NCBI GenBank assembly: GCA_947446575.1 | Contig: CANFHC010000026.1 | Coordinates: 1 to 49,002, forward strand | Reading direction: 5' to 3' | Source: Bacteriovoracaceae bacterium | GTDB taxonomy: Bacteria > Bdellovibrionota > Bacteriovoracia > Bacteriovoracales > Bacteriovoracaceae | Length of the DNA: 49,002 nt | Shown: piece by piece, positions 8,056 through 47,516 of the stretch | How positions within the stretch are numbered: position 1 is the first letter of the stretch | How the letters are laid out: each line of letters starts with the position of its first letter | Notes under the pieces: generated by a model | The model's input: the letters and a program-made list of their open reading frames with translations, nothing else | Database searches by the model: none | Told to the model about the DNA's origin: nothing | Made by a program: the position numbers and the translations under genes

Positions 8056-8068
8056 GGCCGCGGAATGT

Positions 8069-9112
8069 TTATTTTTTTCCTAACCAATACTTTGAAAGAA
8101 GTCGGTAATGGGATTCAATATTTTGAAAACCCGCACCTTGTAATGCTAATGATGTTTCCCATATCGTATAGTCTTTAAAAAATGGTTCATGGTAATCAAT
8201 TGGAAAGTTGTTTAAAACTTCATTGAGTTTTATATCATCATTATTTTGAAGTGAATCACAAAATGCAAAAAGTCCTCCAGTTCTTAACACCCGTCTGCTT
8301 TCACTTAAAACATTTTCACGCACCGATCTTGGCAATTCATGGAAAAGATAAACAGCAAAAACCAAATCAAATTCACCTTCGTTGAATGGCAAATCTTCAC
8401 CGTATGCTTTTACAAACTCAACTGCAGGGGTATTTATTCTTTTTTTTGCCATCTCCAGATAAGGCCCTGAAGGATCACTAATGACATATTTTTCAACATT
8501 AAAACTTTTGCAGAAATCAATAGATGCTGTCCCGACACCAGCACCAAGTTCTAAAATCCGTAAAGGGCGTTCGCTAAAATTTTCACAACTCATTTTGTCT
8601 TTTAAAAACTTAATAAGCATTCTTCTCATTGGAGCTGCAGTGCCTGAGAAAAGGACTTCAACCTGATGTTCGTAAAGACTAGCTGATTCTGCGGAGAAGT
8701 AACCATCAGTTTGAAAGTGGAAGTTTCTGTTGAAATACTCTGGAATATTCTCGAGTGAAGAATCAAAATCTTTTTTCAAATTTAATTTTCTTCGTCGAGA
8801 TATCCTCAGAGAGTCAATAATCAATTTAGGCAATTTGAGAATATGATTTGTTGGAGATTTTGGAATAAGAACCTTGGCAGAGTAGTAACCATCAAGAATA
8901 TTTTGAGCATCTTCATTATGAATTCTTATTACATTTTTTTGTAAGTGCTCAATCAAGTCTTTGTCAGTTTCAGCTTTTGGTGGACGAACCATAAAAGAGA
9001 AAAGGTTGGATATCTGATACAATAATTTGTATTCCAAAGAATATAGAATTGTTTTAGATAAATTTATAGCGACAAAAGATGTTTTTCTAATTTTTTTCAT
9101 TTTATTGAACAT
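8069..9112 (-). CDS. Class I SAM-dependent methyltransferase
   Basis: The C-terminal half of this 347-residue protein is a Rossmann methyltransferase: motif I LELGAGVGTASIDF near residue 190, an acidic strand end (VISDPSG), then FDLVFAVYLFHELP and the post-motif VLRTGGLFAF. The pattern is that of the Methyltransf_11/25 small-molecule or lipid methyltransferases. The first 150 residues are not recognised. It is the last gene of a minus-strand run with the LCAT-like and DUF3833 genes, 94 bp after the former, which hints at a lipid substrate (inference). The in-frame ATG at 9100 is an alternative start; neither start has a strong ribosome site. Confidence 0.8.
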   Translation of the reverse strand: MFNKMKKIRKTSFVAINLSKTILYSLEYKLLYQISNLFSFMVRPPKAETDKDLIEHLQKNVIRIHNEDAQNILDGYYSAKVLIPKSPTNHILKLPKLIIDSLRISRRRKLNLKKDFDSSLENIPEYFNRNFHFQTDGYFSAESASLYEHQVEVLFSGTAAPMRRMLIKFLKDKMSCENFSERPLRILELGAGVGTASIDFCKSFNVEKYVISDPSGPYLEMAKKRINTPAVEFVKAYGEDLPFNEGEFDLVFAVYLFHELPRSVRENVLSESRRVLRTGGLFAFCDSLQNNDDIKLNEVLNNFPIDYHEPFFKDYTIWETSLALQGAGFQNIESHYRLLSKYWLGKK

Positions 9113-15432: not shown

Positions 15433-17193
15433 ATGGCAAAAGAGCGATTTTTATCTCCCAAAGACATTCAAGAGAACATCTCGAAGCTTAAAAACTTCAT
15501 GAAATCCCAAAAACTTGATTCATTCTACATTTCGACTAATGATATTTTTCTTAATGAATATGTACCACTTCCTGATTCTCACCGCTATTACGTGTCTAAT
15601 TTTACCGGCTCAACGGCGGAGGTTATTGTCCCATTAAATGGCAAAGTAATTCTCTTTGTTGATGGTCGTTACTACGAACAAGCGGATTTAGAGGCTGATC
15701 TTAGTGTTGTGGAAGTTTTTAAATGCCCTTATGGGATGGGATTACAAACAGCGATGAAACAAATCATTGCTGAGCGCGGTCTAAAACATTTAGGTGTTGA
15801 AGGAGACCGTATTGATCTATCCCTTTTTAGAGAATTTGAAAAAGTGACGAAAGCCAAATCTTTTAACAACGCTGAGCTTCACCGCGTGATTGATTTTAAA
15901 ACGCTAGATTTTAATAAGACTATTTTAGAACTTCCCTTAGATTTAGTAGGCGAGAGTACTCTTTCAAAGTGTCAGCGCATTCTTGCCCCAGGTGAAGCTT
16001 TTTATATTACGGCACTCGATTCAATTGCCTGGATAACAAATCTTCGTCGTTTTGAAATGCCTTACCAAAGTACATTTAAAGCTAAAGCACTTGCCACTAA
16101 TGAGCGCGTTTATTTATTAATGGAAAATCTTGAAGGAAAAGTTACAAATCCAAACGTAGAAATTACACTTGGTAATTTTTCTAAAGTAGAAGATTTTTTA
16201 ACTGATATTAATTTTTGTGAAAATTTATTCGGTGATAAAAATAAAATTAAAAAAGTTTTTTATTCTGATAAATCAATGAATGTGGCCGATTTTGAAAAAC
16301 TAAAAACACATTTTGGTGAAGCAACTCTAGAAAACCGTCCAGATGGATTAGTTCCATTTCACGCTCATAAGAATCCTACGGAATTAAAATCGATGCTGAG
16401 CTCTTTTGAGCGCGGAGATCAGGCAATTTTTGAAACAATTACTTGGGTTAAAGATCAAGTGAAGAGTGGATCAAATATTTCCGAATTAGATTTTTTTAAT
16501 AAGACCAATGAATTTTATAAAAAGAACGGAGCTTTAGAGCAAAGTTTTAAAACAATTTCTGCCGTTGGAGCAAACTCATCTATCATTCATTTTTCTAACC
16601 CCAGTGCTGATGTGAAAGTCAAGGCCGGAGAGTTAGTGCTCTTAGATTCAGGAGGATACTTTGAATCGGGATACGCGACTGATACAACGAGGGCCTTTTT
16701 AGCTGGCGGATCAGCGAGCAGTCGTCAAAAAGAAATTTACACGACAGTTTTAAAATCAATTCTAGCAACTCAAAATGCCGTCTTCCCTGAAGGAAGTTGG
16801 GGAAGTTTAATTGATGGTCTTGCTCGTCAGCCCGTTTTTAAATACGGTCTTAATTACAACCACGGAACTGGTCATGGAGTAGGGATTAACGTGCATGAAG
16901 GTGGATACCGCCTATCAACAACGTCTTCAGTACCATTAAAAGAAAATACAGTAGGATCTATTGAGCCAGGAATTTATATTCCAGGATTCGGAGGGGTTCG
17001 TCTGGAAAACGTTGCGGCGATTGAAAAACACCCAAGCCTAAATGGCATGCTTCATTTTAGATCTCTCGTCTATATTGGATACGATCACGATTTAATCGAT
17101 GAAAGTTTAATGTCTGATCAAGAAGTAAATTGGCTTGAAGAATACGAGCGCGAGTGTCAAAAACGCGGACGAAGTTTTAAATACCGCAACTGA
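15433..17193 (+). CDS. Xaa-Pro aminopeptidase, three-domain M24B type
   Basis: The 586-residue protein removes N-terminal residues before proline and acts in the cytoplasm (no signal peptide). It has two creatinase-like N-terminal domains (YYVSNFTGSTAE, VDGRYYEQADLEAD) and a pita-bread catalytic domain. All five metal ligands are visible: Asp in LLDSGGYF (about 404), Asp in YATDTTR (about 416), His in HGTGHGVG (about 479), Glu in SIEPGIY (about 511) and Glu in RLENVA (about 524). The length matches the long eukaryote/bacterial XPNPEP1-like form rather than the 440-residue E. coli PepP. AAAAAGG lies 9 nt before the ATG. The last 37 bp overlap the convergent metalloprotease gene. Confidence 0.93.
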   Translation: MAKERFLSPKDIQENISKLKNFMKSQKLDSFYISTNDIFLNEYVPLPDSHRYYVSNFTGSTAEVIVPLNGKVILFVDGRYYEQADLEADLSVVEVFKCPYGMGLQTAMKQIIAERGLKHLGVEGDRIDLSLFREFEKVTKAKSFNNAELHRVIDFKTLDFNKTILELPLDLVGESTLSKCQRILAPGEAFYITALDSIAWITNLRRFEMPYQSTFKAKALATNERVYLLMENLEGKVTNPNVEITLGNFSKVEDFLTDINFCENLFGDKNKIKKVFYSDKSMNVADFEKLKTHFGEATLENRPDGLVPFHAHKNPTELKSMLSSFERGDQAIFETITWVKDQVKSGSNISELDFFNKTNEFYKKNGALEQSFKTISAVGANSSIIHFSNPSADVKVKAGELVLLDSGGYFESGYATDTTRAFLAGGSASSRQKEIYTTVLKSILATQNAVFPEGSWGSLIDGLARQPVFKYGLNYNHGTGHGVGINVHEGGYRLSTTSSVPLKENTVGSIEPGIYIPGFGGVRLENVAAIEKHPSLNGMLHFRSLVYIGYDHDLIDESLMSDQEVNWLEEYERECQKRGRSFKYRN

Positions 17194-17954
17194 TAATTTA
17201 TTAATGCAATAACGAGAAAGCCAAACAATAATCCCAGCCAAGTGTTGGGATTGTTTTTTGAGCCGTTCATATCGACAGATCCGCAGGTCACTGGTTGTTG
17301 TTTTGGATAAAGATAACTAATGCCATCGATATCATCTGAACCTAAAGCACTTCTCATATTGACGGTTGAATAATACATCAATGAATCTTTCACTGGGCTA
17401 TGACCAAGACCAAAAGTATGGCCTAGTTCATGAGCAATTATTGAAATCTTTTCATCGCGGCTTTTTGTTTTAAACGTATTGTTGGCCTGATCGTTAATCA
17501 TAATCAGAGATCCAACAATTGTTTTGCCAGAAACGTTGTTAGGAACTGTGACAGCGAGAACGCCAGAACCTGAATAATTGCCGGCATTTTTATTACAAGT
17601 GATTAGTACATCGGAAGATACTGCGAGGGCAGGAGTTGGGTCGCAAGATGTGCCTGTTAGACAGATAAGTCCAGTGGCAAAAGCTGTTGATGATGTCACA
17701 ACAGAGCCCATGCGAAGCTTTAATCGACTAGTTGGAGATCGGTTCCAGTATTGATCAACAGCGTCTCCGACAATTGAAAGCAATTCACTTTCATCTATTC
17801 CAATATTAGTACAACGATCCAATGCAACAGTTGATTGATGAACATTGACTTTCACTTCATTTTGTCCAAAAACCAATGTTGAAGTGTTGTTCAAGGTAAA
17901 AGAGTGGGCGTTAGCACTTATAATTAAAAAAAGAATCAAATATATAAGTTTCAT
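17157..17954 (-). CDS. Matrixin-type zinc metalloprotease with C-terminal membrane anchor
   Basis: The product is about 265 residues from ATG 17954, which has GGAGAA about 8 nt upstream and starts directly with the signal peptide MKLIYLILFLIISANAHS. The zinc site HELGHTFGLGH is complete and is followed by a Met-turn (DSLMYYS), as in M10/matrixin metzincins. The C-terminus has a Cys, an Asn-rich spacer, then WLGLLFGFLVIALI as a membrane helix and a basic tail. That layout resembles C-terminal sorting/anchor tails. The gene follows the outer-membrane protein gene by 1 nt (operon). The basic tail lies within the 37-bp overlap with the aminopeptidase gene. Confidence 0.85.
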   Translation of the reverse strand: MKLIYLILFLIISANAHSFTLNNTSTLVFGQNEVKVNVHQSTVALDRCTNIGIDESELLSIVGDAVDQYWNRSPTSRLKLRMGSVVTSSTAFATGLICLTGTSCDPTPALAVSSDVLITCNKNAGNYSGSGVLAVTVPNNVSGKTIVGSLIMINDQANNTFKTKSRDEKISIIAHELGHTFGLGHSPVKDSLMYYSTVNMRSALGSDDIDGISYLYPKQQPVTCGSVDMNGSKNNPNTWLGLLFGFLVIALINYQLRYLKLRPRF

Positions 17955-17955
17955 T

Positions 17956-18549
17956 TTAAAATTCTCCAAAGTGATACGTTCCATTTATCGCAATGGAATA
18001 AGCGCGGTCTTCGCTAGAGGTCAAATTGAAAATATAAGTGTGCAAATCTGCACTCCACTCTCTTGTAAAATCTAATCCTGCACCTAAATTGAGAATAAAA
18101 TTTCGAGTAAAGACGCTTGAGTCTGGCAAAGGGAAGGACGAAGTTGAATTTCCATTATTTAAATCTTCTGTACCACCACTTCCGGATATTCGCGTAAAGA
18201 ATAATCCCAATCCAACAATTAAATGGAAATTTGTTAATTTGTATTTTGCGTTGGCGAGAATAAAAAGACTCATTTTAGAGATATTTTCATCGCGGGCACT
18301 TTTAGGAATTGAAAAACCAAATTCTGGAGCGATTAAAAATTCTGGTGAGACGGAGTAATCGATCGAGCTAGCAAAATAAGGATTAAATTCACAAAAATTC
18401 GTTCCTCCATTTTCATCAACTTGAATTTTTCCAACATATTCACAGAGATTCCCAACGGAGAGTGTAGCATCATAGGCCCGAGATTTTTCAGGGGTGAAAA
18501 GTACAAGAAGAATTCCGAGCAATACAATAAGGTATTTATTTTTTTTCAT
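17956..18549 (-). CDS. Predicted small outer-membrane beta-barrel protein
   Basis: The 197-residue product has a signal peptide (MKKNKYLIVLLGILLVLFTP, cut near SRAYD). Alternating strands include FHLIVGLGLFFTRI and FILNLGAGLDFT, and the C-terminus is YHFGEF with a terminal Phe. This matches an 8-stranded OmpW/OmpA-like barrel in size. It is first in a two-gene unit with the metalloprotease. Function is unknown. Confidence 0.7.
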   Translation of the reverse strand: MKKNKYLIVLLGILLVLFTPEKSRAYDATLSVGNLCEYVGKIQVDENGGTNFCEFNPYFASSIDYSVSPEFLIAPEFGFSIPKSARDENISKMSLFILANAKYKLTNFHLIVGLGLFFTRISGSGGTEDLNNGNSTSSFPLPDSSVFTRNFILNLGAGLDFTREWSADLHTYIFNLTSSEDRAYSIAINGTYHFGEF

Positions 18550-18642
18550 ATTCGCTTAGTATTCTTTCAAATCATAGGGTAATATGGCAATGTTTAAACT
18601 GAATTAATTCTTATGTAACCTCCATCCTCAAAGGAAAATTCT

Positions 18643-19761
18643 ATGTTTGATAATTTCCAAATTCCCGAAAATTTAATTCCTAGTGACCCTCGTTTTGGCT
18701 GTGGTCCTTCTCTTGTTCCGACCGAATTTCTGCACATGCTAGCTAAAACCGGTGTGCATTATATGGGAACAAGCCATAGAAAACCTGCTGTAAAAAATGT
18801 TGTCAGAGAAATCCAAGAAGGATTGATGAAATATTTCAATGTTCCTTCAGATTATTTAGTCGTGCTTGGTAATGGTGGAGCAACACTTTTATTTGATATG
18901 ATTGCGCTTGGAATTGTTGAGAAAAAGGCCACTCATTTTACTTGTGGAGAGTTCTCAGAAAAATGGTACAAATCTTCAAAACTTGTGCCATGGATTCAAA
19001 CAGAACAAGTCAGTGTTGAATTTGGTAAAGGTATCAACGGAGTTGCAGTTGCTGGATCTGATTTAATTGGTGTGACATTAAATGAAACTTCAACAGGTGT
19101 TCAATTATCTGCTCTTCCAGTTGTAGATGAAAATACAATTTTAGCAGTTGATGCTACTTCAGGTGGGGGACAATGCCCATGTGACGTTTCTAAAACAGAT
19201 ATCTATTTCTTTTCTCCCCAAAAAGTTTTCGCAAGTGACGGAGGTCTTTGGGTGGCGATCATGTCTCCAAAAGCTCTAGCTCGCGCTAAAAAAATTGCTG
19301 CTGATAAATCTCGTTACGTTCCAGATATCATGAATTGGAATAACGCTATTTCTAACTCTGAAGCGAATCAAACTTACAATACTCCGGCCCTTACAACATT
19401 GTTTATGATGAATGAGCAAATTAAAGGCATGAATATTTTAGGTTACGAAAAAGTAAAAGAACTTGCTCAGAAAAAAGCCGATCTTCTTTATGGATGGGCA
19501 GAATCTAAGCCGTACCTTTCTTGTTATATTGCTGAAAAAGAATTTAGATCAGTAGCAGTTGCAACAATCGACGTAGATCCAAAAGTAAACGTAGATGACA
19601 TTATTAAATTCTTAGAAAAGAAAAAAGTAGTTTACGGAATTGATGGTTACAGAAAATTGGGAAGAAACCAATTTAGAATTTCTATGTTCCACAATATCAC
19701 TTATAACGATCTTGAGAAATTGACTGGATTGTTATCGGTGATGATTGAATCAAAATTATAA
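18643..19761 (+). CDS. serC: Phosphoserine aminotransferase, actinobacterial-type
   Basis: The 372-residue class V PLP aminotransferase converts 3-phosphohydroxypyruvate to phosphoserine in serine synthesis. Visible features are FGCGPSLVP at the N-terminus, GTSHRKPAVKNVV (substrate/phosphate binding), VVLGNGGATLLFD, AVDATSGGGQ and the PLP lysine Lys194 in SPQKVFASDGG. The GTSHR and SPQK patterns match the Mycobacterium-type SerC subfamily better than the E. coli type. AAAGGAAAA precedes the ATG. A strong terminator follows, so it is monocistronic. Confidence 0.93.
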   Translation: MFDNFQIPENLIPSDPRFGCGPSLVPTEFLHMLAKTGVHYMGTSHRKPAVKNVVREIQEGLMKYFNVPSDYLVVLGNGGATLLFDMIALGIVEKKATHFTCGEFSEKWYKSSKLVPWIQTEQVSVEFGKGINGVAVAGSDLIGVTLNETSTGVQLSALPVVDENTILAVDATSGGGQCPCDVSKTDIYFFSPQKVFASDGGLWVAIMSPKALARAKKIAADKSRYVPDIMNWNNAISNSEANQTYNTPALTTLFMMNEQIKGMNILGYEKVKELAQKKADLLYGWAESKPYLSCYIAEKEFRSVAVATIDVDPKVNVDDIIKFLEKKKVVYGIDGYRKLGRNQFRISMFHNITYNDLEKLTGLLSVMIESKL

Positions 19762-31409: not shown

Positions 31410-32762
31410 ATGAGTATTCAAAAAATTAAAATATTAATTATTCGAACAACCGAAGAAAGTTCTTGGGGCAGTTGTCGAGTAATCTCACCGAACTTGCAAA
31501 AAACTTATCAGCATCTCTCTAAAGAAATATTTGAAATTCGCTTTTTTGATATTACCGAAAAGTTTTTACTCGAGGATCTCAAGACTAATTCTAATCATAT
31601 GAGAAATTTGGCAAATATGATTATTCAATTTGAGCCTGACGAGCTTGTGTTCGTCGATCATTTGCCTCATCCTTTTAAAATACTATCAGTGCTTCAAATG
31701 TTTTTGACTAAATCTCAATTTCCAACCTTGGTATTTCATATTTATGGAGATTTTTCTTATTTTGCAAGTGATTGGATTAAATTCGCACTCAACTTTCCTG
31801 AACAAAAAGTGAAATTCATTGTTGCCTCTGAATCACAATTAAAACTTTTAAATTATTTTTCTAAAAACTCAAATTGTAATTCTCGTTTTTTATTTCCGGT
31901 TAATTCTAACGATTATTTTTTTAATTCGGACGAAAGAACAGAGTTAAGAAAAAAAATGAATCTAGCCGAAGATGATTTTGTGATTTTATATTCTGGAAGA
32001 ATAAGTTTACAAAAAAATGTCGACCTCATTATTGATGAATTTAGTAATTTAAATGATCTTTCTCCTGGAAAAGTTCATCTATGGATAGTTGGATCTTTTG
32101 ATGACCTTGGAGCTAATTTCATGGGGGTCAATAATCTTCCTGGATATATGTTTCATAAGATTCAAGAGATTTTAGATCTACTGCCTCCTCATTTAAGAGA
32201 AAAAATCACTTTCTGGGGAAATCAAAAAAAAGAAATGTTGAGAAAGATCAACAATGCCTCAGATCTTTTTATAAGCCTGAGTTTATATCATGATGAAGAC
32301 TTTGGAATGTCTCCGGCAGAAGCACTTGCGACAGGCCTGCCTACTTTATTGACAGACTGGGGAGGCTACTCTTCTTTCATGTCAAAAGAGTGGTGCTCTG
32401 ATCTCGTTCCCGTCAATATTACCCCATTTGGTCTTGAAATCAGTGCTTTTAAAATGGTTGAATTCATAGAAAATACTCTTAAAGCAAAGGTCGATTTTTC
32501 CAAAAGAAAACTTTGGTCTGATAAATTTTTAAAAGAATTTTCAATTGAAGGAAGCTCCTGGAAATTAGCTGAGATTTTAAAAAATGAAACATCTACTTTT
32601 GATGGTTTTTCTTTTGGCTTAAAATTCTATCAAAAAGAGTTTGGTCACAGTCTTTGGAAATTAGGAAAAGAAATTAGCGAAGAACTAACTCCCTCATCTG
32701 AAAATTATTATTATCAAGTTTATCAAAATTATATTTCTTTAAATGGTAGAGTAAATGAATAA
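31410..32762 (+). CDS. GT4-like glycosyltransferase
   Basis: The 450-residue GT-B enzyme has an N-terminal acceptor domain. Its donor domain is recognisable from FVILYSGRISLQKNVDLII, VHLWIVGSFDD, ITFWGNQKKEMLRKINNASD and the E-x7-E type block EDFGMSPAEALATGLPTLLTDWGG. GT4 enzymes transfer sugars from nucleotide donors to glycans or lipids. No membrane helix is present. The next gene starts inside its last codons (8-bp overlap), so the pair is translationally coupled. Its sugar and acceptor cannot be told; the SGNH-like genes nearby would suit a surface-glycan pathway (inference). Confidence 0.85.
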   Translation: MSIQKIKILIIRTTEESSWGSCRVISPNLQKTYQHLSKEIFEIRFFDITEKFLLEDLKTNSNHMRNLANMIIQFEPDELVFVDHLPHPFKILSVLQMFLTKSQFPTLVFHIYGDFSYFASDWIKFALNFPEQKVKFIVASESQLKLLNYFSKNSNCNSRFLFPVNSNDYFFNSDERTELRKKMNLAEDDFVILYSGRISLQKNVDLIIDEFSNLNDLSPGKVHLWIVGSFDDLGANFMGVNNLPGYMFHKIQEILDLLPPHLREKITFWGNQKKEMLRKINNASDLFISLSLYHDEDFGMSPAEALATGLPTLLTDWGGYSSFMSKEWCSDLVPVNITPFGLEISAFKMVEFIENTLKAKVDFSKRKLWSDKFLKEFSIEGSSWKLAEILKNETSTFDGFSFGLKFYQKEFGHSLWKLGKEISEELTPSSENYYYQVYQNYISLNGRVNE

Positions 32763-33756
32763 AAATAAAGAAACCCGCGTTGTATCCTGGGGATATGACT
32801 TAATTAGAAATATTTTTTTAAATCATAGAGAAGATTATGATTTCCAAGAAGACCTTTACCGCAACTACCTCTCACCATTCATGAAAGACATCTTTGGAAC
32901 TCATACACCTGTTTATATTTTTGGCGGCCAGGAAATTAAGTTAATCGTTGAGAAGAATATGCTCACCTTCAGAGATGGTCTACTTCCACTAACTATCTTT
33001 TTTAAAGAAGCTAATGTAGATCAATTCGCTCCAATTATTGCTATTCATAAAGATTACCATTTCATCGTTCCAGATGAATGGAAAAAGAAAGTTATTTATT
33101 ACGATATCAATTCAAAACGTAAATACAGCAAAAACTCACTTCCCAAAAAAATCCTTATTACTGGGATGATGAACTCTGCCCTTTCAGAACCACGTGAATT
33201 TGAAAAATCACTAGAGAACCTGGCACAAAAAGTAGGCGTCAATAATTTAGAGAAAATAGAAATTTCCTGCTTTTGCCCGAGTAAACGAAATGATTTATGG
33301 GGAGGCTGGGAAGAAGAAAATGTTTTGCGGTATTCGCAAGCAATTTTTCAAAAACTTAAATTAGACATTAAAGTTCCAGAGTGGAAGCACATCATTCAAG
33401 AAAGTGATTATACAGACACTCTTTACTATGAGATCAATAATGGCTTTTTTATAAAAGACAGCTTCCCACTTCATCATATCCTTGCCAAAGGAGCTGGACT
33501 ACTCGCAGATGATGAATCACTGACAAGTTCGCAATTTAAAATTAAAAATGAAATTGCCCTCTCGCTCTATCACTCAATTCGTTTTTATGATTGCGATTAC
33601 TCAACGAATGATCCCTTTGAAACCCAAGTTGAGGACTTGGAATACTTTAAACAAATAAGTGCCATCGAGAGCAAAAATAAAAAATTAAACTTTAGATGGG
33701 AAGAGTGGTATGCCTCTTACATTAAGAAATATTACTCAGCCGCCATCGAAAAATAA
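32755..33756 (+). CDS. Unknown protein coupled to the glycosyltransferase
   Basis: A 333-residue soluble protein without signal peptide or membrane helix. It is rich in aromatic and charged residues, with KKILITGMMNSALSEPREFE in the middle and a conserved-looking ISCFCPSKRNDLWGGWEEEN. I do not recognise the family. The 8-bp overlap with the GT4 gene implies a joint role, for instance a second sugar-handling enzyme or a partner subunit. Confidence 0.75.
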   Translation: MNKNKETRVVSWGYDLIRNIFLNHREDYDFQEDLYRNYLSPFMKDIFGTHTPVYIFGGQEIKLIVEKNMLTFRDGLLPLTIFFKEANVDQFAPIIAIHKDYHFIVPDEWKKKVIYYDINSKRKYSKNSLPKKILITGMMNSALSEPREFEKSLENLAQKVGVNNLEKIEISCFCPSKRNDLWGGWEEENVLRYSQAIFQKLKLDIKVPEWKHIIQESDYTDTLYYEINNGFFIKDSFPLHHILAKGAGLLADDESLTSSQFKIKNEIALSLYHSIRFYDCDYSTNDPFETQVEDLEYFKQISAIESKNKKLNFRWEEWYASYIKKYYSAAIEK

Positions 33757-37515: not shown

Positions 37516-39288
37516 TCAGGGGGATTGGATGAAGTGAGTCTCTTTTAAATATTTAAGTATTCTAGCAGCTACAATCTGATGACCTTCTGGGCTGAAATGA
37601 TCATCACTTGATCCTTTATAGCGCCCTTGCAAATACATAAAATCACGCTTCAACAAATCAGGATACTGGAGCAGAATTTCGTTAAAGTGGTCTATTAAGT
37701 CAACTTTTAATTCTTTGGCAACTTCCCTTATCGGGTCATTTTCTCCTTTATTAAAATTAGAGTTTCTTAATGGGGGATAGGTTTGAAGAACTACTTTGAC
37801 TCCCATAGAATTAAAAAAATTAACAATCAAAGCAATGTCGTAGTGTCTCCAGTTTTGGATAGCTTCAATTGAGGGATGGTAAAAAGGTGAAAGGTTCTCG
37901 ATTAGGCCTAAGCTTTGAAGCCGCTTTAATTTATCTTGCAAAGTAAGCTGCATTTTTTTACTGCATAAATAAAATTTAGAGTCGAGTTCATCTTTAAAGC
38001 TATAAATTTGGTTAAAGGGATCTTCTTCTATTGCATGATAAAGCGTAAGGCATGCAAGGTCCTCCTCTCCGACATACCTAAGAGCATTGGCTCCTATTGA
38101 ATATATACGTGAACGATCTATAAGATATGAGTGATTGGCAAAGAGGTTTATTAATTCTTGTTTATCTTTTATAAAAGATTCTTCAGAAGTAAATTGTTTG
38201 AAGGTTTTTGATAACTCGATGGCATTTCTGATTGTTAGCAATTTTTGTATAACCGGAATTGATTTTATGAAGCTTAATTGATTCTTTAAGTAACTCATCC
38301 ATTGTTGTTGATAAGATGGATCTATGGCAATTTCTTTTTGATAAAAAAAATATAAGGGATTAGTTGCCTTTAATTTATTTTTTTCTGAAGAGTTTGAGAG
38401 AAATTGTCTTTCGATAAATAGATTTTTATTTTGTTTAAAGTTTAAAAAAGCAAAATCGACCAATGAGCCTTTGGATGCTTTAAAAAACAAATAAAGATTA
38501 ATGGCCCTCTCTGAAAGTTCATTGTAGCACTTTCCGTAACAAGTCAGTTGGTTTAAATCTTCAATGTAGTACTCTAAAGGGTATTTAAGATTAAGGGCAA
38601 GAGAGATTCGTGTTTCGCGCAAACTAATATTTCCAGGGTGTTTTTGAAGAATCTCTTTTGATGTTTGAAAGAACGTTATAAGCTCCTCTTCAGAGGCAAA
38701 TTCGCGGTAATCTTTTTTGATGCTTCCATCAATATTTCTAATTTTTTTAAGCAAATGAAAAGCAAAATTAGGATCTGAAAGCATTGAGTTTTGATTAATC
38801 AATTTATTGTCCTTTAATTGATATAAAGAATAGGAAATAAATGAAAATATTCTTGAATGCTTTAAGAATATTGAAACAAAAGAGCTTTTTTGATCATTAA
38901 CAATTGAAGGATTGTTCGTAAACTGATTGTATCCATAAAAGTTCCAGGCATTAGGTTGTCCAATCATTAAAAAAACTATTTTTGGATTGAAATTAATCAG
39001 AGAATTTAATTGCTCTTTAATGAGGGACGTATTGAGACTGTAGTCAGAGAAATTAATTATGTTATATAAGTGACCAATGTTTTTCTCAACTATCTTTGAA
39101 TAGATTTGATCTTTTTGAACGAGCGGCCCGGCGGTATATGAATTTCCAATAATTAAAATAGACTTATGATTTTTGCCAATGACTCCATTCTCGTTACGAG
39201 TACGCAATATTGAGAATAGGCCTAAACTCATCTCTCCCAAAGCAAAAAAGAAAATAAAACCTATGAGGAATGCGAGAGTTTTTTTCAT
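37516..39288 (-). CDS. Long SGNH-hydrolase-like exported protein, paralogue 1
   Basis: A 590-residue protein with an N-terminal signal anchor (MKKTLAFLIGFIFFFALGEM). An SGNH fold is split by a long insertion. The nucleophile block ILIIGNSYTAGP (Ser50) and the block VFLMIGQPNAWNFYG (Asn) come first. Then about 300 residues of helical, repeat-like sequence follow, with paired Cys (LTCYGKCYNEL; LACLTLYHAI). The late block DDHFSPEGHQIVA (Asp, His) comes near residue 570. It would face the periplasm as an esterase or O-acetyl transferase/esterase, as in AlgX/DltD-like enzymes. It is a close paralogue of the 43127-44905 protein. Confidence 0.8.
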   Translation of the reverse strand: MKKTLAFLIGFIFFFALGEMSLGLFSILRTRNENGVIGKNHKSILIIGNSYTAGPLVQKDQIYSKIVEKNIGHLYNIINFSDYSLNTSLIKEQLNSLINFNPKIVFLMIGQPNAWNFYGYNQFTNNPSIVNDQKSSFVSIFLKHSRIFSFISYSLYQLKDNKLINQNSMLSDPNFAFHLLKKIRNIDGSIKKDYREFASEEELITFFQTSKEILQKHPGNISLRETRISLALNLKYPLEYYIEDLNQLTCYGKCYNELSERAINLYLFFKASKGSLVDFAFLNFKQNKNLFIERQFLSNSSEKNKLKATNPLYFFYQKEIAIDPSYQQQWMSYLKNQLSFIKSIPVIQKLLTIRNAIELSKTFKQFTSEESFIKDKQELINLFANHSYLIDRSRIYSIGANALRYVGEEDLACLTLYHAIEEDPFNQIYSFKDELDSKFYLCSKKMQLTLQDKLKRLQSLGLIENLSPFYHPSIEAIQNWRHYDIALIVNFFNSMGVKVVLQTYPPLRNSNFNKGENDPIREVAKELKVDLIDHFNEILLQYPDLLKRDFMYLQGRYKGSSDDHFSPEGHQIVAARILKYLKETHFIQSP

Positions 39289-39622: not shown

Positions 39623-39652
39623 TTGCAAGTCGCTCTTGCTCAATTATATAAT
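39623..39652 (+). promoter_or_regulatory. Promoter giving a leaderless radical-SAM mRNA
   Basis: TTGCAA (39623-39628), an 18-nt spacer and a perfect TATAAT (39647-39652) end 6 nt before ATG 39659. The +1 would be at or next to the A of the start codon. No Shine-Dalgarno is present, which fits leaderless translation. Confidence 0.6.
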
Positions 39653-39658
39653 AAAGCT

Positions 39659-41050
39659 ATGTACTACCTAGAGATAAGAGATATTCCAGAGACTATTAAT
39701 AATTTAATTCAAAAAGATGAGTTTGTTTTTTTAGAATATGATAATTCCCATTTTTGGGATCCTGATTTGAAGTCCATAGAGCATATTTCCAATATTTCTA
39801 CCCTGACCTCTCGTTTTTTTGTATACATGAATTTAAAAGATGAAAAAGTTTACTTAGAAAACCCTGTTTATAATATTCCCTCGGTAAGATGGATAGGGGT
39901 TCCAATTGAAGTGGGCTCAGGGGATAAATTAAGTGCGGCGAGAATTTATTCTAATATTGATGAAAAAAGTATTAAGCAATTTGAGCTCTACAAAGAAATT
40001 ATCCAGAAAGAATCGGTCATTCCTGTCTTTAAACCTACCTTAAATAGATATCAGTTGGGGCCTACCTTGCTGAAATTTTTTCAATCTTATAATTTGGATT
40101 TTGCTTTCATCCATCCTGTCACTGATAAAAAAGATGAAATGGTCCTCATTATTCGTGAAGCTTTTGAATATCTTCGCCTAAGGGGTTTTAGAAAACATAT
40201 CTACTTCACTTATAATTTAGATTTTGACATGTGGAATGCGAAAACTTTTAATACTTTTTCTGGATTAAAAAGCGTTCATATGGATCTCTCTAATAAGTGC
40301 ACCCATTCATGTGTTTTTTGTGGATTATGGGGACCTGATTTCATTGATGCCCTAAGGGCGCAAGAAGGTGGAGTTCTTACCCCTGGCACAAAAAAATTCA
40401 TGAATCAACAAATCTCATTCGATCGTGCTCTCGCCATTATCCAGAGTGTTCCGGAGACCACAAATAATGTTCAGTTAGGTGGTGCTGGAGATCCTCTGAC
40501 TCATCCTAATTGGCTTGAGATCATTACGGCCTGGAGAACGAGAGGATTTGAGACGGAAGTTCTTTCTAATTTTGAGTATCCTAGTTTTTTGCAATTAGAG
40601 GCCCTCCACGCTCTGGCGCGTGGTAAAGCTCGCTTAGCTTTTTATGTTAATATTTCAGCTGCGACTCCTGAAACTTATACTTTAGTTAGACCTCGCCAAA
40701 GCAATGAGACTTTTGACAAAGTTATTTTGAACCTCGCTTATATGAGAGGATTGGAGCAAAGGGATGGCTTTGGAGTAAAATTCACTCTAATTCATATTAT
40801 TAATTCCTTAAACTATCACGAACTTGTTAAAATGGTTGAGCTCTCTTACACCCTCCGTTCTGGTGTTTGGTTGAAGCCATTAGAAATTCATAATGATATT
40901 CATCGTAAATATTCAATTCCCAAAGACAAGTATGATGAATACAAAGAATATATTAAATTGGCCTTAGAAAAAGTAGATCAATTAAATGTGAAAATGCATG
41001 GTAGAGAATTTCTGGAGGCCATAATCAACAGTCAATCGATAGAGAGTTAG
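39659..41050 (+). CDS. Radical SAM protein lacking its own SPASM domain
   Basis: The 463-residue product has an unrecognised N-terminal region of about 205 residues, then a radical SAM core. The cluster motif is CTHSCVFC (Cys214, 218, 221), followed by VQLGGAGDPLTHPNW (the GGE-like SAM-binding strand), LSNFEYP and YVNISAATPETYTLVRP. The core organisation is that of SPASM/peptide-modifying enzymes. It ends 25 residues after the barrel with no Cys-rich C-terminal domain. A separate SPASM-only gene lies at 42427-42885. The start was set at ATG 39659, which coincides with the predicted +1; an in-frame TTG at 39623 lies in the -35 box. Confidence 0.85.
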   Translation: MYYLEIRDIPETINNLIQKDEFVFLEYDNSHFWDPDLKSIEHISNISTLTSRFFVYMNLKDEKVYLENPVYNIPSVRWIGVPIEVGSGDKLSAARIYSNIDEKSIKQFELYKEIIQKESVIPVFKPTLNRYQLGPTLLKFFQSYNLDFAFIHPVTDKKDEMVLIIREAFEYLRLRGFRKHIYFTYNLDFDMWNAKTFNTFSGLKSVHMDLSNKCTHSCVFCGLWGPDFIDALRAQEGGVLTPGTKKFMNQQISFDRALAIIQSVPETTNNVQLGGAGDPLTHPNWLEIITAWRTRGFETEVLSNFEYPSFLQLEALHALARGKARLAFYVNISAATPETYTLVRPRQSNETFDKVILNLAYMRGLEQRDGFGVKFTLIHIINSLNYHELVKMVELSYTLRSGVWLKPLEIHNDIHRKYSIPKDKYDEYKEYIKLALEKVDQLNVKMHGREFLEAIINSQSIES

Positions 41051-41173
41051 AAGAGTGATTTTGACTTTTTTATAGATGAAGAGTTTCTTGAAATTATTTT
41101 GCTAAACAAAATGAATTCGATGCCGAATTTATTTTCTCTTTCCTCACCTGATAATCTTTTCTTGTATCGTATG

Positions 41174-42427
41174 TTAATTTTTATTCTTATTTTTAGTTTC
41201 GCAGAAGTAATAATTGCCATGATTATCATAAAAGATTAAGTCGTGAACTTTTCTTTCATGGCTGTACATTTTACTGATTGCTGAAAACTCTTTGTCTTTT
41301 AAGAAACTTAGTTCCTCTGAAATATCAACAAAGTGATCACCAACCTTCGTTACAAGTGTAAAGTTATATTCTTTTTTGACAAAATTCTTAAGCCCTCGCG
41401 ACTTTAGGCACAGAAGTGAGTCGGGATCTTGCCCACCCGAATTAAGGATAACATCTTCAACTCTGTAGAACCAACTATCCGTTTCAGAAATAAGTGGGCC
41501 TTTATTGTCAAAATGAGAAAATTTTCCATTTTCTTTTTGAAGATAAAGCTCAACGATTCCATGTTGTACCGAAGCGTCGTGATAGAGAGCAAGAAGGTGA
41601 TCGTGTTGGTCACCTGAAAATCGAATAGATTTCATTTCGATACAGGCCCAATTATCTCCGCCTCTTCGCTGTGGGAGTGTTTCAATATTTTCTTTAAGAA
41701 AGAAGCCATTGCCATCATTTTTTAAAACTAAATCATTTGGACTAAAAAAATCATCACCCTGTGATCCGAGAGCAAGATGGAGCTTTCCTTCAAAGTCTCT
41801 AAATTTGGTGCCTGAAAGTGGTTTGAAGTTTAGCTCTTCAATGAGATGAGGAATTCTTTCAAGATTTCGAGAAAGTTTGTTATTAGAAAAGCTCAGGAGA
41901 GCAGGAAGTTTTGTATCCATCAAATCAAATATGACCAGTTCTGGTACCCCATCTCCATCCCAATCACCAGAGCATCCAGCAAAAGTATTACCAAGCGGGT
42001 AGTCGATAAAATCAGGGATTTCTACAAAAGAGTCTCCATCACTTTTAAAAAAGACATTTTTTGCTCCTGGAAATGGACTTTGATCAAAACCGTGATCAAA
42101 GACAACTAAATCCAAATAGTCCTTGCTTGTGAAATGATCTTGAAGATAATTTCTTGCATGAACAAAGCCTCGGTCAAATTCAAAAAATTTTTTTTTCATT
42201 ACTAAACGATTACTTTTTGAATGAAAGCTTGAATGAAAAACAGGCCAGAATCTATTTTCTAAAGGGAGTTTCAAAGAGGTTAATAAGAATGTTTCCTCTG
42301 CCTTTTCCTGAGTTTTGACTCGATAAAGATCATGAAGATCTCTCTCTTCTAGATTATTGAGAAAAAGATAAATTTTAAATTGTTCTGTCTCTCCACAGAA
42401 AAATTTTTTATCATTAAATAAATCCAT
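41174..42427 (-). CDS. Cytoplasmic FG-GAP/VCBS-like beta-propeller protein
   Basis: A 417-residue beta-rich protein. Repeated blade motifs include VVFDHGFDQSPFPGAKNVFF and GDWDGDGVPELVIFD, a calcium-loop D-x-D-G-D-G. LALGSQGDDFF and LLALYHDASVQHGIVELYL follow, then LIFYDNHGN at the end. No signal peptide is present, unlike most FG-GAP proteins and unlike its paralogue at 46179-47516. Its ATG overlaps the stop of the SPASM-only gene (TAATG), so the two are co-translated and probably act together. The role may be a substrate or scaffold for the radical-SAM/SPASM pair; that is inference. Confidence 0.75.
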   Translation of the reverse strand: MDLFNDKKFFCGETEQFKIYLFLNNLEERDLHDLYRVKTQEKAEETFLLTSLKLPLENRFWPVFHSSFHSKSNRLVMKKKFFEFDRGFVHARNYLQDHFTSKDYLDLVVFDHGFDQSPFPGAKNVFFKSDGDSFVEIPDFIDYPLGNTFAGCSGDWDGDGVPELVIFDLMDTKLPALLSFSNNKLSRNLERIPHLIEELNFKPLSGTKFRDFEGKLHLALGSQGDDFFSPNDLVLKNDGNGFFLKENIETLPQRRGGDNWACIEMKSIRFSGDQHDHLLALYHDASVQHGIVELYLQKENGKFSHFDNKGPLISETDSWFYRVEDVILNSGGQDPDSLLCLKSRGLKNFVKKEYNFTLVTKVGDHFVDISEELSFLKDKEFSAISKMYSHERKVHDLIFYDNHGNYYFCETKNKNKN

Positions 42428-42885
42428 TACTTTTTCGAATCTTCCTTCTTAATAAATAAATTATCTGCTGAGTCTTCCCATTTTTTATTTAAATTATCTG
42501 CAAATCCTTTATTGAGTGGGATGTGAGGGCAAATTTGACAGAAGGAAAATTCAGCATCGTGCAAATGGAATTTCTTTTTGTGGATACTTAAAAATTTTGC
42601 TCGCCAAGCATTGTATTCAGCAGAGTGCCAGATATTGTCGAAATCTGTTTCATTAATATTGCCTAGTGAAAAAGGAGAGACACAGCAAGGCTTGACTGAA
42701 CCATCCACTTCAAAGCGGGTATAGCTAAAACCAATGGTGCAGGGAATTTGTTGCATTAGCTCAGCAGGATAATCACCATTGATGGCCCCTGTCTGCACAG
42801 TGGGTGCTTCAGGAGGGGATTCAGTGAGTGAGGCATCTGAAATTTCTAACGATTCTATTTCTAAATTATTGTCTTCTATTTTCAT
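42427..42885 (-). CDS. Stand-alone SPASM-domain protein
   Basis: The 152 residues match the SPASM Cys-rich domain that normally forms the C-terminus of radical SAM enzymes: IPCTIGFSYTRFEVDGSVKP then CC, LGNINETDFDNIWHSAEYNA, and CQICPH. These Cys would hold auxiliary 4Fe-4S clusters. There is no radical SAM barrel. The first 40 residues are acidic and Pro/Thr-rich. The gene is translationally coupled (TAATG) to the FG-GAP gene, and the nearby radical SAM protein (39659-41050) lacks exactly this domain. A split enzyme is the likely meaning. Confidence 0.85.
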   Translation of the reverse strand: MKIEDNNLEIESLEISDASLTESPPEAPTVQTGAINGDYPAELMQQIPCTIGFSYTRFEVDGSVKPCCVSPFSLGNINETDFDNIWHSAEYNAWRAKFLSIHKKKFHLHDAEFSFCQICPHIPLNKGFADNLNKKWEDSADNLFIKKEDSKK

Positions 42886-43126: not shown

Positions 43127-44905
43127 CTATTTAATATAATTATTAGTTCGTAAATATTTCAGTATTGCATCTGCTACGAGCTGATGACCTTCAGGACTAA
43201 AATGATCGTCTGTCGTACCTTTTAACCGCCCTTGCAAGTAGATTTTGTCGCGTTCTTTTATGTCAGGATACAACTTTAGCGTCTCGTTAAAGTGATCAAT
43301 TAAGTCAACATTGAATTTTGTTGCAATTCGCCTTATAATCTTATTCTCTCCTCTGTCTTCATTATCAATACGACGTGGAAGATATGTTTGAAGAACAACT
43401 TTTGCACCAATTGAATTAAAGAATTTTACAATAAAAGCAATGTCGTAATATCTCCAATTTTGTATACTTTTATAGCTTGGAGCAGAAAAAGGTGTAAAGT
43501 CTTCGAAAATACCATTTTTCTTGAGTGTTATCATTTTTTCATCAATTGTTTGCTGCATTTTTTTACTACAAAGTTGATATTTTGAAGATAGCAGCTCTTT
43601 AAAGCTGTAGATCGAATTATATGAGTATTCCTCCAGTGCATTGTAAAGTGTAAGGCAGGCCAGATCATTTTCCCCCATTTCGAAAAGTGCATTCGCACCT
43701 AAAAGGTAGAGACGTGGGCGATCTATAAACTCCAAATGATTGCTAAAGAGTTCAACCATACCCACTTTGTTTTTAAGGAAATCCTCGTTCGGATCAAATC
43801 CTTTTACAGTATTGGTTAAAGTATTGGCCAATTCGATAGAATTTCTTAAGTCTAATAACTTTTGTGTTGAAAGAGATGATTTTAAAATATTTGTTTGAGT
43901 TAATAAATAATTTAACCATTTCACTTCACTCGATTTGTCCTTTGTTAATAATTTTTGATTTGATGACATTGAATTTGATTGGAGTGGAGTTTCTTTCTCC
44001 GAATAGATACCAAGATTACGTCTTTCCAAAATGATATTTTTATTGAAATTTATATTTAAAAAATCAAGGTTGATTAATTCATAATTGTGTTGCTGATTAT
44101 TTTGAAGATTCAAATAATACTGAAGAGCAATTTCTGCAATCTCATTGAAACAATTTCCATAACAAGTTAACTGATTTATATCTTCGATTAAAAACCTTAG
44201 AGGATAATTAAGATTGGCAGCTAAAATTATTCTTTTTTGACGAAGGCCTATATTTCCAGGTTTTTTCGCAAGACTAGTTTTTGAGAAATCAAAAAATGTT
44301 GTTATTTCTTTGAAAGAAACTTGTGAGCGATAATTAATTTTTAATTTACCTTCACCATTACTAATCTTATTAAGAAAAAGCTGAGTGAGGCTTTGATCTG
44401 TGAGAGCGTTGTTTTTTTGCGTATGACTGTTCTTGATTTGATAGAATGAATATGAAAGGAAGGCAAAGGTTCTTGAGTGCTTTGATAAAGTTGACAGCAG
44501 TGAGACCTGTGTATTATTTTTAATTGATGTTTTCAGAAAGTTATTGTACCCGTAAAGGTTCCAATTATTAGGCTGGCCGATCATTAAAAAAACAATTTTA
44601 GGATTTAGTTTTACAAGGCTTTTTAATTTTTCCTTTATCAAGGCTGTGTTTAAGCTATAGTCTGATATATTAATGACATTATAGAGATGACCGATTTGGT
44701 TTTCTACTTTTATTGAATAGATTTCATTTGGTGAAACAAGTGGACCTACAGTATATGAATTCCCTATGATTAAAAGGGACTTATTATTTTTTAAACTTAC
44801 TTCAAGTGGGTAATGATCTCTAACAAGGGAAAATATCCAAAATCCGGCTTCACTTAGAGTCAAAAAGAAAATTATACCCAATAATAGGGAGATTAACTTT
44901 TTCAT
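43127..44905 (-). CDS. Long SGNH-hydrolase-like exported protein, paralogue 2
   Basis: A 592-residue protein with the same plan as paralogue 1: signal anchor MKKLISLLLGIIFFLTLSEA, LLIIGNSYTVGP (Ser50), VFLMIGQPNNWNLYG, a long helical insert with LTCYGNCFNEI and LACLTLYNALEE, then DDHFSPEGHQLVA. The invariant Ser/Asn/Asp/His positions are kept in both copies, so both are probably active. The insertion differs most between the copies. The two genes bracket the radical-SAM/SPASM/FG-GAP group in the same orientation. Confidence 0.8.
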   Translation of the reverse strand: MKKLISLLLGIIFFLTLSEAGFWIFSLVRDHYPLEVSLKNNKSLLIIGNSYTVGPLVSPNEIYSIKVENQIGHLYNVINISDYSLNTALIKEKLKSLVKLNPKIVFLMIGQPNNWNLYGYNNFLKTSIKNNTQVSLLSTLSKHSRTFAFLSYSFYQIKNSHTQKNNALTDQSLTQLFLNKISNGEGKLKINYRSQVSFKEITTFFDFSKTSLAKKPGNIGLRQKRIILAANLNYPLRFLIEDINQLTCYGNCFNEIAEIALQYYLNLQNNQQHNYELINLDFLNINFNKNIILERRNLGIYSEKETPLQSNSMSSNQKLLTKDKSSEVKWLNYLLTQTNILKSSLSTQKLLDLRNSIELANTLTNTVKGFDPNEDFLKNKVGMVELFSNHLEFIDRPRLYLLGANALFEMGENDLACLTLYNALEEYSYNSIYSFKELLSSKYQLCSKKMQQTIDEKMITLKKNGIFEDFTPFSAPSYKSIQNWRYYDIAFIVKFFNSIGAKVVLQTYLPRRIDNEDRGENKIIRRIATKFNVDLIDHFNETLKLYPDIKERDKIYLQGRLKGTTDDHFSPEGHQLVADAILKYLRTNNYIK

Positions 44906-45158: not shown

Positions 45159-46142
45159 ATGAATAGAAATCTTTTAAAATGGGGGGGCGGCTTTTTAGTT
45201 CTCCTCAGTTTATTATTCTCACTCAATCGTTTTTTTAAAAATAAACGATTAAATGAAATGCACTGGAGAGATGTGGGGGGACAAGAACTTATTCTGCGGC
45301 GCAATGGCTTAGAAAAGTTAAATCCTCATATGTCTTTGCGTTCACTTTTATTAGACCATAAGTCGGAAATGACTAAATTAAAAGAAGGCAAGCTGGTCTA
45401 CAGAGCGGTTTATACAGTTGATAAAAAAGGTTTTCGAATTAGTAAAGCTACAAATCTTCCTGGTAAAACAAAACATTTTTTAATTATTGATGGGTCGATC
45501 GCTTTTGGAGAAGGCTTAAATGATGATGAGACAATCCATCACTTGATAAATATGAGAAGCAAAATATATGAAGCCTATGAATTAGGATTTTTAGGTTACG
45601 GTCCTCAGCATAACTGGCTTAGATTTAATAGTAAGCAGCTGGGCTTTGATATCCATCAAAAAAGAGGATCTGCCATTTTAATTACTCACGCTCAGGATTT
45701 TAGAAGATTGATTGGAACCCTTGATCATTTAATCTACTCGTCTAATTTTCCCCTGTTGGTTGAATCGTCACCTGGAAAATTTGAACATAGGGGAAATTTT
45801 ATCAATAACGGAACCCTCCTTCAGAGAATAGCCGCCAGATTTTGCGTTCCATTTTTATTTTGCAAAAAATTTATGGCAAAGTCCTTCAAAGGTCCTGATG
45901 AGAACCAAGTAGCCTTCGCGGCCAGATTGTACGATTCAATTGAAAAAATGTATCGAGAACAATTTGATGTAGAGGATCTTAAAATAGTTTGGGTTGGAGA
46001 AGAAGACGTAGCAATTTTTAAGAAATTTTCAAAAATAAAAATCATAAAAATTCCTTTCGATAGAATTGATTCTAGTCATCCCAGTGCACAGGGGGCAAAA
46101 GAAATTGTCGATTTTCTTTTCTCTCAAAAAATCATCTACTAA
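45159..46142 (+). CDS. Shorter SGNH-hydrolase-like protein with signal anchor
   Basis: The 327-residue product has an N-terminal membrane anchor (LLKWGGGFLVLLSLLFSLNR). An SGNH-type core has HFLIIDGSIAFGEGLNDDET (nucleophile Ser in a G-x-S-x-x-x-G-x-G context), FLGYGPQHNWLRF and the end block DSSHPSAQGAKEIV (Asp/His). It lacks the long insertion of the two paralogues above. The coding DNA has a G7 run at 45181-45187 (codons 8-10), which could slip. Ribosome sites are weak (AGGATC, 13 nt away). The next gene begins 36 bp later. Confidence 0.78.
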   Translation: MNRNLLKWGGGFLVLLSLLFSLNRFFKNKRLNEMHWRDVGGQELILRRNGLEKLNPHMSLRSLLLDHKSEMTKLKEGKLVYRAVYTVDKKGFRISKATNLPGKTKHFLIIDGSIAFGEGLNDDETIHHLINMRSKIYEAYELGFLGYGPQHNWLRFNSKQLGFDIHQKRGSAILITHAQDFRRLIGTLDHLIYSSNFPLLVESSPGKFEHRGNFINNGTLLQRIAARFCVPFLFCKKFMAKSFKGPDENQVAFAARLYDSIEKMYREQFDVEDLKIVWVGEEDVAIFKKFSKIKIIKIPFDRIDSSHPSAQGAKEIVDFLFSQKIIY

Positions 46143-46161
46143 TTACTTTTAAAAGCCTCTG

Positions 46162-46170
46162 TGCTATCCT
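46162..46170 (+). promoter_or_regulatory. Extended -10 element before a leaderless start
   Basis: TGCTATCCT is an extended -10 (TGn-TATnnT) that ends 8 nt before ATG 46179. TTACTT 16 nt further upstream is a weak -35. No Shine-Dalgarno is seen. Confidence 0.4.
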
Positions 46171-46178
46171 TTATTTCA

Positions 46179-47516
46179 ATGAATGCATTTCACTTTATTA
46201 TTATTTTTTTATGTCTTGTGACTTCTGCCTCATCCCAGACAATAAATGGATCATTGCCTACCACTCAAGAGAATCCCCTGATGGATATATATTCCATAGA
46301 TCTTGATGGAGATGGCACAGATGAATTGGTAGCGACAAGCTTAAATATCAAAAATCGTAAACTTCCATCCGCTATAAAAGTTTTTAAACTTTATGAGCAG
46401 GGGAAATTTCAGGATAGAACGACAGATTTTTTTAAAGTGATACCTAAGCTCTTTCATGCTCGACACCTTTTGTTTATCCCAGATTTTAGCGCGGGTCTGC
46501 CAGCTCTTTTTATTTCAGATCATGGCGCTGATTTTGCTCCCTTTGAAGGAGCTATTTCTAAGCTTTTTGTTTTAGATAAAAAATCTCATAAATACCTTGA
46601 TCAGACTCATCAATATGGCCTTGATCATAATAAGGGCTTTACTTTTGCGAGCACTTTTAACCACACAGGAGTCAATAAGCGAGCACTTCTTGTAAAGGCC
46701 AATATGTTGGCTGTTCCTGAAAATGCAATGAGAGTTAAGATTATCGATGGACGCAAAGTCACAATGAGACAGAAGATGCTGGGACCGATGAGCCAATTTG
46801 AGATTCAGGAGCTTTCTGCAAAAAATAAGTTTAAAAATATTATCGATACTTTTGATCAATTTCCTGCCAGTAAATGTTTTATGAATGCTTTGTTTGCTGA
46901 TTTTGATGGTGATCAGGAAGATGAATTAGTAATTGGTGGATGTGACTTGACTCAAAAAAGTGAAAGATATATCGATCATGATCTCATTTTAAAGAAAAAG
47001 CAGGGGAAACTTGTTGCTTGGATATCACTTCCCAAAAGAAACGATGAGGATCTCTGGGGTGTAGCGGCCCTATACGCAAAAGATCTTTTTAATTCTAAGA
47101 GAAATGATTTAGTTGAAGTCATTTACAATAATAAATTTTCAAAAGGAAAGGTAAATATTTTTGAAAATGTTGAAGGAGAAAAGTTCAAACTAAATCAGCA
47201 ATTTACTCCCGATATAAAAGATGCTGATTTTTTTATTCCTTGGGTGGTTTTAATAGATATTAATAATGATCACCAACTGGATATTATTGGAACCTATCGT
47301 TTTCTTCAGGAAGGTAAACCTTATAAAAAAGATGGTGATACATTTTTTGTCTTAAAAAATACTGGAAAGACTTTTATTCAAGAAAAAATGACTTTTCAAA
47401 TTCCACGCGGATCCTTGATGATAAATGCCGTTAAAATGAAGATAAAGAATAGGGAACACCTCGCTTTCATAGATGTGAATGGAAAAATTTATATTATTGA
47501 TCCGAGTAATAAGTGA
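46179..47516 (+). CDS. Exported FG-GAP/VCBS beta-propeller protein
   Basis: The product is about 445 residues from ATG 46179, which begins the signal peptide MNAFHFIIIFLCLVTSASSQ; an in-frame GTG at 46161 lies in the probable promoter. It has several calcium-loop blades: DLDGDGTDELVA, DFDGDQEDELVIGG and DINNDHQLDIIG. SDHGADFAPFEGAISKLFV matches the blade VVFDHGFDQSPFPGAKNVFF of the cytoplasmic paralogue. A seven-bladed propeller in the periplasm or on the surface is likely. The pairing of SGNH and FG-GAP genes is seen on both sides of the cassette. Confidence 0.78.
   Translation: MNAFHFIIIFLCLVTSASSQTINGSLPTTQENPLMDIYSIDLDGDGTDELVATSLNIKNRKLPSAIKVFKLYEQGKFQDRTTDFFKVIPKLFHARHLLFIPDFSAGLPALFISDHGADFAPFEGAISKLFVLDKKSHKYLDQTHQYGLDHNKGFTFASTFNHTGVNKRALLVKANMLAVPENAMRVKIIDGRKVTMRQKMLGPMSQFEIQELSAKNKFKNIIDTFDQFPASKCFMNALFADFDGDQEDELVIGGCDLTQKSERYIDHDLILKKKQGKLVAWISLPKRNDEDLWGVAALYAKDLFNSKRNDLVEVIYNNKFSKGKVNIFENVEGEKFKLNQQFTPDIKDADFFIPWVVLIDINNDHQLDIIGTYRFLQEGKPYKKDGDTFFVLKNTGKTFIQEKMTFQIPRGSLMINAVKMKIKNREHLAFIDVNGKIYIIDPSNK

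Follow-up and report, generated by a model that had tools for sequence, protein, structure and literature searches.

Radical SAM enzymes of the twitch/SPASM type are normally single proteins in which the catalytic barrel and the auxiliary domain are joined. A locus from a Bacteriovoracaceae bacterium raises the question of whether these two parts can be divided between separate polypeptides and still belong to one enzyme. Within the window (the whole stretch of DNA analysed, 49,002 nucleotides), a radical SAM gene and a small gene for an auxiliary domain lie convergently on opposite strands, with a propeller gene between them (Table 1).

Table 1. Features of the window relevant to the split radical SAM locus.
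Feature	Position	Strand	Remarks
GT4 glycosyltransferase and partner protein	31410..33756	+	homologues downstream of the pair in relatives; displaced here
SGNH/GDSL-like membrane-anchored protein, flanking neighbour, putative role	37516..39288	-	
Radical SAM catalytic subunit	39659..41050	+	463 aa from ATG; Pfam PF04055 and CTHSCVFC motif
Cytoplasmic FG-GAP-like propeller	41174..42427	-	417 aa; TAATG-coupled to the twitch gene
Free-standing twitch subunit (auxiliary [4Fe-4S], predicted)	42427..42885	-	152 aa; C49/C67/C68/C116/C119
SGNH/GDSL-like paralogue, other flank of the block	43127..44905	-	52% identity to the 37516..39288 product
SGNH-like protein, neighbour	45159..46142	+	relatives found at L065 and L149
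Second FG-GAP propeller protein, neighbour	46161..47516	+	relatives adjoin the pair in L065, L130, L131 and L150

Results

Gene and domain anatomy

The ORF positions and three-gene layout of the original prediction were borne out by the ORF coordinates, as was, by the sequence at the overlap, the TAATG in which the stop of the small gene meets the start of the propeller gene. An alternative start for the radical SAM ORF is a TTG at 39623. The stretch from there to the ATG (39623-39659) holds a promoter-like TTGCAA-18-TATAAT, which ends 6 bases 5′ of the ATG and would imply a leaderless transcript; promoter consensus matches around these positions showed no excess over shuffled sequence. The block as a whole is flanked by the two SGNH/GDSL-like paralogues in the same orientation, and a relative of the third SGNH-like protein (45159..46142) precedes the radical SAM gene at one locus (L065) and follows an N-twitch gene at another (L149).

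The hallmark of the radical SAM superfamily is a CX3CX2C motif within a partial TIM barrel. The 463-aa protein carries CTHSCVFC at residues 214-221, inside a match to PF04055 (residues 210-395; 39.1 bits, Pfam cut-off 29.5), and is a member of the superfamily by this motif and by the fold matches of a fused homologue (Z about 20-24), with SAM cleavage as its predicted activity. The claim that it has no C-terminal auxiliary domain held: Pfam detected no auxiliary-cluster domain past the barrel, and the protein stops at the point where fused homologues go on. Its N-terminus (about residues 1-200) is a predicted TIM-like domain that, taken alone, gave middling TIM-barrel matches (best Z, 11.6, to a designed barrel), so no function was assigned from its fold. 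A profile of the barrel family found no sequence match in the PDB.

The 152-aa protein had been described as essentially only a SPASM domain. It is indeed a bare auxiliary-cluster domain (PF13186, residues 49-120; 49.3 bits, cut-off 21.5), but of the twitch type. The full SPASM motif comprises seven cysteines (CX9-15GX4C-gap-CX2CX5CX3C-gap-C) and two clusters, while a twitch domain has one cluster (PMC6231123). Only five cysteines occur in the 152-aa protein, all are conserved in its homologues, and their spacing (C-x17-CC-x47-C-x2-C) was constant in all 10 of the split homologues checked. A profile of the small proteins matched BtrN in the PDB (E = 2.5e-7), aligned across the same C-x17-C. 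Because there are only five cysteines and because of the BtrN match, the protein was assigned as a free-standing twitch domain, with one predicted cluster, rather than as a two-cluster SPASM domain.

For the propeller, the FG-GAP match (PF13517) reached 23.8 bits, below the Pfam cut-off of 26.9, so that of the label ‘cytoplasmic FG-GAP propeller’ the propeller part is well founded, on clear propeller relatives, but the FG-GAP assignment is sub-threshold; relatives in L131 and L150 score above the cut-off. A viperin-like defence function, suggested by a weak PADLOC match (pVip, 19.7 bits), was rejected, as the remaining anatomy and the neighbours do not fit.

Distribution and fusion of the two genes

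Loci were sampled from named Bacteriovoracaceae and Bdellovibrionales assemblies and then by order- and phylum-wide searches covering 369 Bdellovibrionota genomes. The barrel gene was present in 20 of these and the twitch gene in 18, all 18 carrying both (hypergeometric, 1e-28, for related genomes whose counts are not independent and with relatedness uncorrected). In the two genomes with a barrel gene only (G032 and G141), that gene is truncated by a contig end. Co-occurrence in relatives, which the original prediction had proposed as a check, thus held for every twitch-positive genome, and with the pair conserved in 18 genomes the arrangement is no chance observation. Twitch relatives were absent from the phage records, plasmid records and viral contigs searched, and a phage or plasmid origin was rejected on this ground.

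Sixteen split loci were found, compared to five fused ORFs (G005, G011, G105, G107 and G352; 585 aa and 533 aa in the first two). At every split locus besides the window, barrel and twitch genes are adjacent on the same strand, and in same-genus relatives the twitch gene is immediately downstream of the barrel gene. Where starts are clear, the gap between them is about -86 to +18 nt; many of the genes overlap (-4 to -86 nt), and 12-18 nt separate the ORFs in G006, G012 and G132. The auxiliary domain placed C-terminally on the same polypeptide, which defines twitch/SPASM enzymes, is lacking at the 16 split loci, the window among them. The propeller gene directly follows the twitch gene in G006 and G012, as in the window, so the window barrel gene is inverted relative to these.

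A maximum-likelihood tree was built from concatenated barrel and twitch proteins (G105 excluded as truncated), a tree with long branches and only distant fused outgroups. The fused state is scattered among the split rows, with four changes, at least two of them forced by well-supported branches; the barrel and twitch genes have fused several times. The distance matrices of the two proteins were closely matched (r = 0.94), and in G116 and G117, where the pair is duplicated, the copies retained their cognate partners. One locus (L130) holds two paralogous pairs (6334-8134 and 17102-18899); an N-twitch radical SAM gene comes after one of them and an exported FG-GAP gene after the other. At L149:3007-4635, a distant fused paralogue of radical SAM and auxiliary domain (542 aa) lies directly upstream of a split pair. 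G001 has, besides two complete pairs, a third barrel gene without an adjoining twitch gene (L060:9001-10386), which may act alone or borrow a twitch subunit in trans.

A close homologue of the barrel with an auxiliary domain of its own had been named in advance as evidence against a two-part enzyme. Such homologues do exist, though in a special form: the domain that they carry is orthologous to the free-standing one, which weakens the claim of a categorically new arrangement and strengthens that of two halves of one enzyme. The split pair is best read as a known type of enzyme in two-subunit form, explained and supported by its fused relatives, for which a physical complex, its clusters and its substrate are proposed below.

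Predicted fold and genomic neighbourhood

An AlphaFold2 model was made of the single-chain fused homologue from G005 (pLDDT 85.4, pTM 0.87). In a single superposition, residues 195-581 of this model aligned with BlsE (Z = 24.1, 303 residues, 3.3 Å), with DesII (Z = 23.3) and SkfB (Z = 22.9) near-tied as runners-up. For the fused form, the model supports a canonical docking of twitch domain onto barrel, and from this single chain we infer that the same docking may extend to the split pair.

Among these matches, DesII acts on a TDP-sugar and SkfB is a peptide enzyme. The pair’s common neighbours in relatives are glycosyltransferases (GT4), an ABC-2 type exporter and an N-twitch radical SAM protein (NF033640). 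The substrate of BlsE is a glycosidic sugar acid (PMC3715490) and that of BtrN an aminocyclitol (PMC9012708). Because of the neighbours and of the folds and substrates of BlsE, DesII and BtrN, a sugar or nucleotide-sugar substrate is favoured, most likely a sugar of an exported surface polysaccharide, activated by a nucleotide or linked to a lipid; with SkfB near-tied, this is a lean rather than a proof. In the genome of the window, the rest of the cassette of the relatives (M16 peptidase, HemW-like protein, N-twitch radical SAM protein and GT4) is on contig C5 (L148), without the pair, and with the polysaccharide cassette mostly on that other contig the proximity evidence is weak there. The same contig has two further cassettes of GT4 and a 333-aa partner (L148:9989-16341) besides the one in the window.

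Discussion

Taken together, co-occurrence, adjacency in other genomes, repeated fusion, matching distances and the model of the fused homologue support the two-part enzyme of the original prediction, and the two genes probably encode two subunits of a single radical SAM enzyme, with the twitch domain carried by a polypeptide of its own and a sugar as the likely substrate. In such an enzyme, the 463-aa subunit would bind the substrate as well as the [4Fe-4S] cluster that cleaves SAM, and the 152-aa subunit would dock where the C-terminal twitch domain sits in BlsE, DesII and BtrN, supplying one auxiliary cluster that would serve probably as electron acceptor or substrate anchor. In the window organism, with the catalytic gene inverted relative to the twitch-propeller pair, the parts would meet after translation.

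The overlap of reading frames in many loci could suggest that the split is only apparent and that programmed frameshifting or readthrough yields a fused protein at most split loci. This is very unlikely: the ORFs with 12-18 nt between them argue against it, and in the window, where the two genes lie on opposite strands, joining is impossible and the parts must work in trans. The rearrangement, seen at the window locus alone, and the polysaccharide cassette on contig C5 without the pair would also be expected if the window pair were the decaying relic of a rearranged operon, yet both ORFs are intact, all invariant residues and cysteines are kept and the distance from relatives is ordinary, and we consider decay highly improbable. 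It is somewhat easier to imagine, though still improbable, that the barrel is complete alone and that the 152-aa protein acts as an independent iron-sulfur carrier of electrons, serving either this barrel or several of the pathway’s radical SAM enzymes. Electron transfer between molecules has been documented for another radical SAM enzyme, PapB (PMC10470005), and the lone barrel gene in G001 is compatible with this reading. It fits poorly with repeated fusion at the canonical position of the C-terminal domain, with the strict co-occurrence and the cognate partners kept by paralogous pairs, and with the way in which the fused form superposes on enzymes made of one chain.

The propeller bears on what the enzyme acts upon. 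A two-part protein maturase whose target is the TAATG-coupled propeller here and exported FG-GAP proteins in other lineages would account for the propeller directly after the twitch gene in three genomes, for more distant FG-GAP genes directly after the twitch gene in G143, G116b and G117b and beside the fused gene in G352, and for strong matches to the close cytoplasmic propeller in pair-positive genomes only; SkfB among the near-tied best folds points the same way. Only about one locus in three, however, has an FG-GAP gene next to it, and the lack of a propeller beside about two thirds of the loci (including G001, G002, G005, G011, G132, G349 and G247) means that a propeller cannot serve as substrate in general. 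Moreover, some lineages would have a cytoplasmic target and others an exported one. As the close propeller is strong in three genomes only, the role of accessory partner is likelier for it than that of general substrate, and we regard a propeller maturase as unlikely. The role of the propeller as a general maturase target is accordingly doubtful, and the word ‘maturase’ itself, which implies a peptide or protein substrate, sits uneasily with folds and neighbours that lean to carbohydrate. RiPP peptide maturases are marked by a RiPP recognition element and a precursor peptide; in the window system the N-terminal domain is predicted to be TIM-like, and no precursor peptide came to notice in the course of annotation.

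What the auxiliary cluster does in SPASM/twitch enzymes has been asked for a long time and is hard to test, since the domain is covalently attached. With a natural separate twitch protein, and fused homologues as controls, the cluster-bearing part of the proposed two-subunit enzyme can be omitted, titrated, mutated and swapped. A broader and rather doubtful extension is that some radical SAM enzymes form an obligately heteromeric class, whose free, exchangeable auxiliary subunit can serve more than one barrel in trans (for example, the lone barrel in G001); if true, the auxiliary cluster would be a separable module. Domain order and linkage are in any case loose in the superfamily, the auxiliary domain being C-terminal, N-terminal (NF033640) or in trans.

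Comparison with known systems

A literature search, with most subscription journals outside its scope, found no papers on free-standing SPASM or twitch subunits. Over barrel and twitch jointly, the fold of the fused homologue is closest to those of BlsE and DesII, but each is one polypeptide of about 15% identity with other N-terminal parts and a known substrate. The NF033640 N-twitch proteins likewise combine twitch and radical SAM domains and are co-located with the pair in many relatives, and their halves are weakly matched by the small protein and the barrel of the window; their twitch domain, however, is N-terminal on the same chain, and membership was rejected with the window proteins far under the family cut-off (17.8 and 26.8 bits; at least 170 required). 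The Spiro-SPASM protein (TIGR04321) is a weak match with an N-terminal extension of similar length before the barrel, but is one polypeptide, and the window score is far under its cut-off. BtrN, a twitch radical SAM enzyme (2-deoxy-scyllo-inosamine dehydrogenase), is the closest solved sequence relative of the 152-aa protein, sharing the C-x17-C spacing and a GNI...IWH region; it differs in being one polypeptide and in having no comparable N-terminal domain, and its auxiliary cluster has four cysteine ligands (PMC6231123, PMC9012708). The LipS1/LipS2 lipoyl synthase resembles the pair in that two proteins jointly replace a one-protein radical SAM enzyme (PMC9585515). Each of LipS1 and LipS2 binds two [4Fe-4S] clusters and performs one step (PMC9585515), whereas in the window system one subunit is the auxiliary-cluster domain only.
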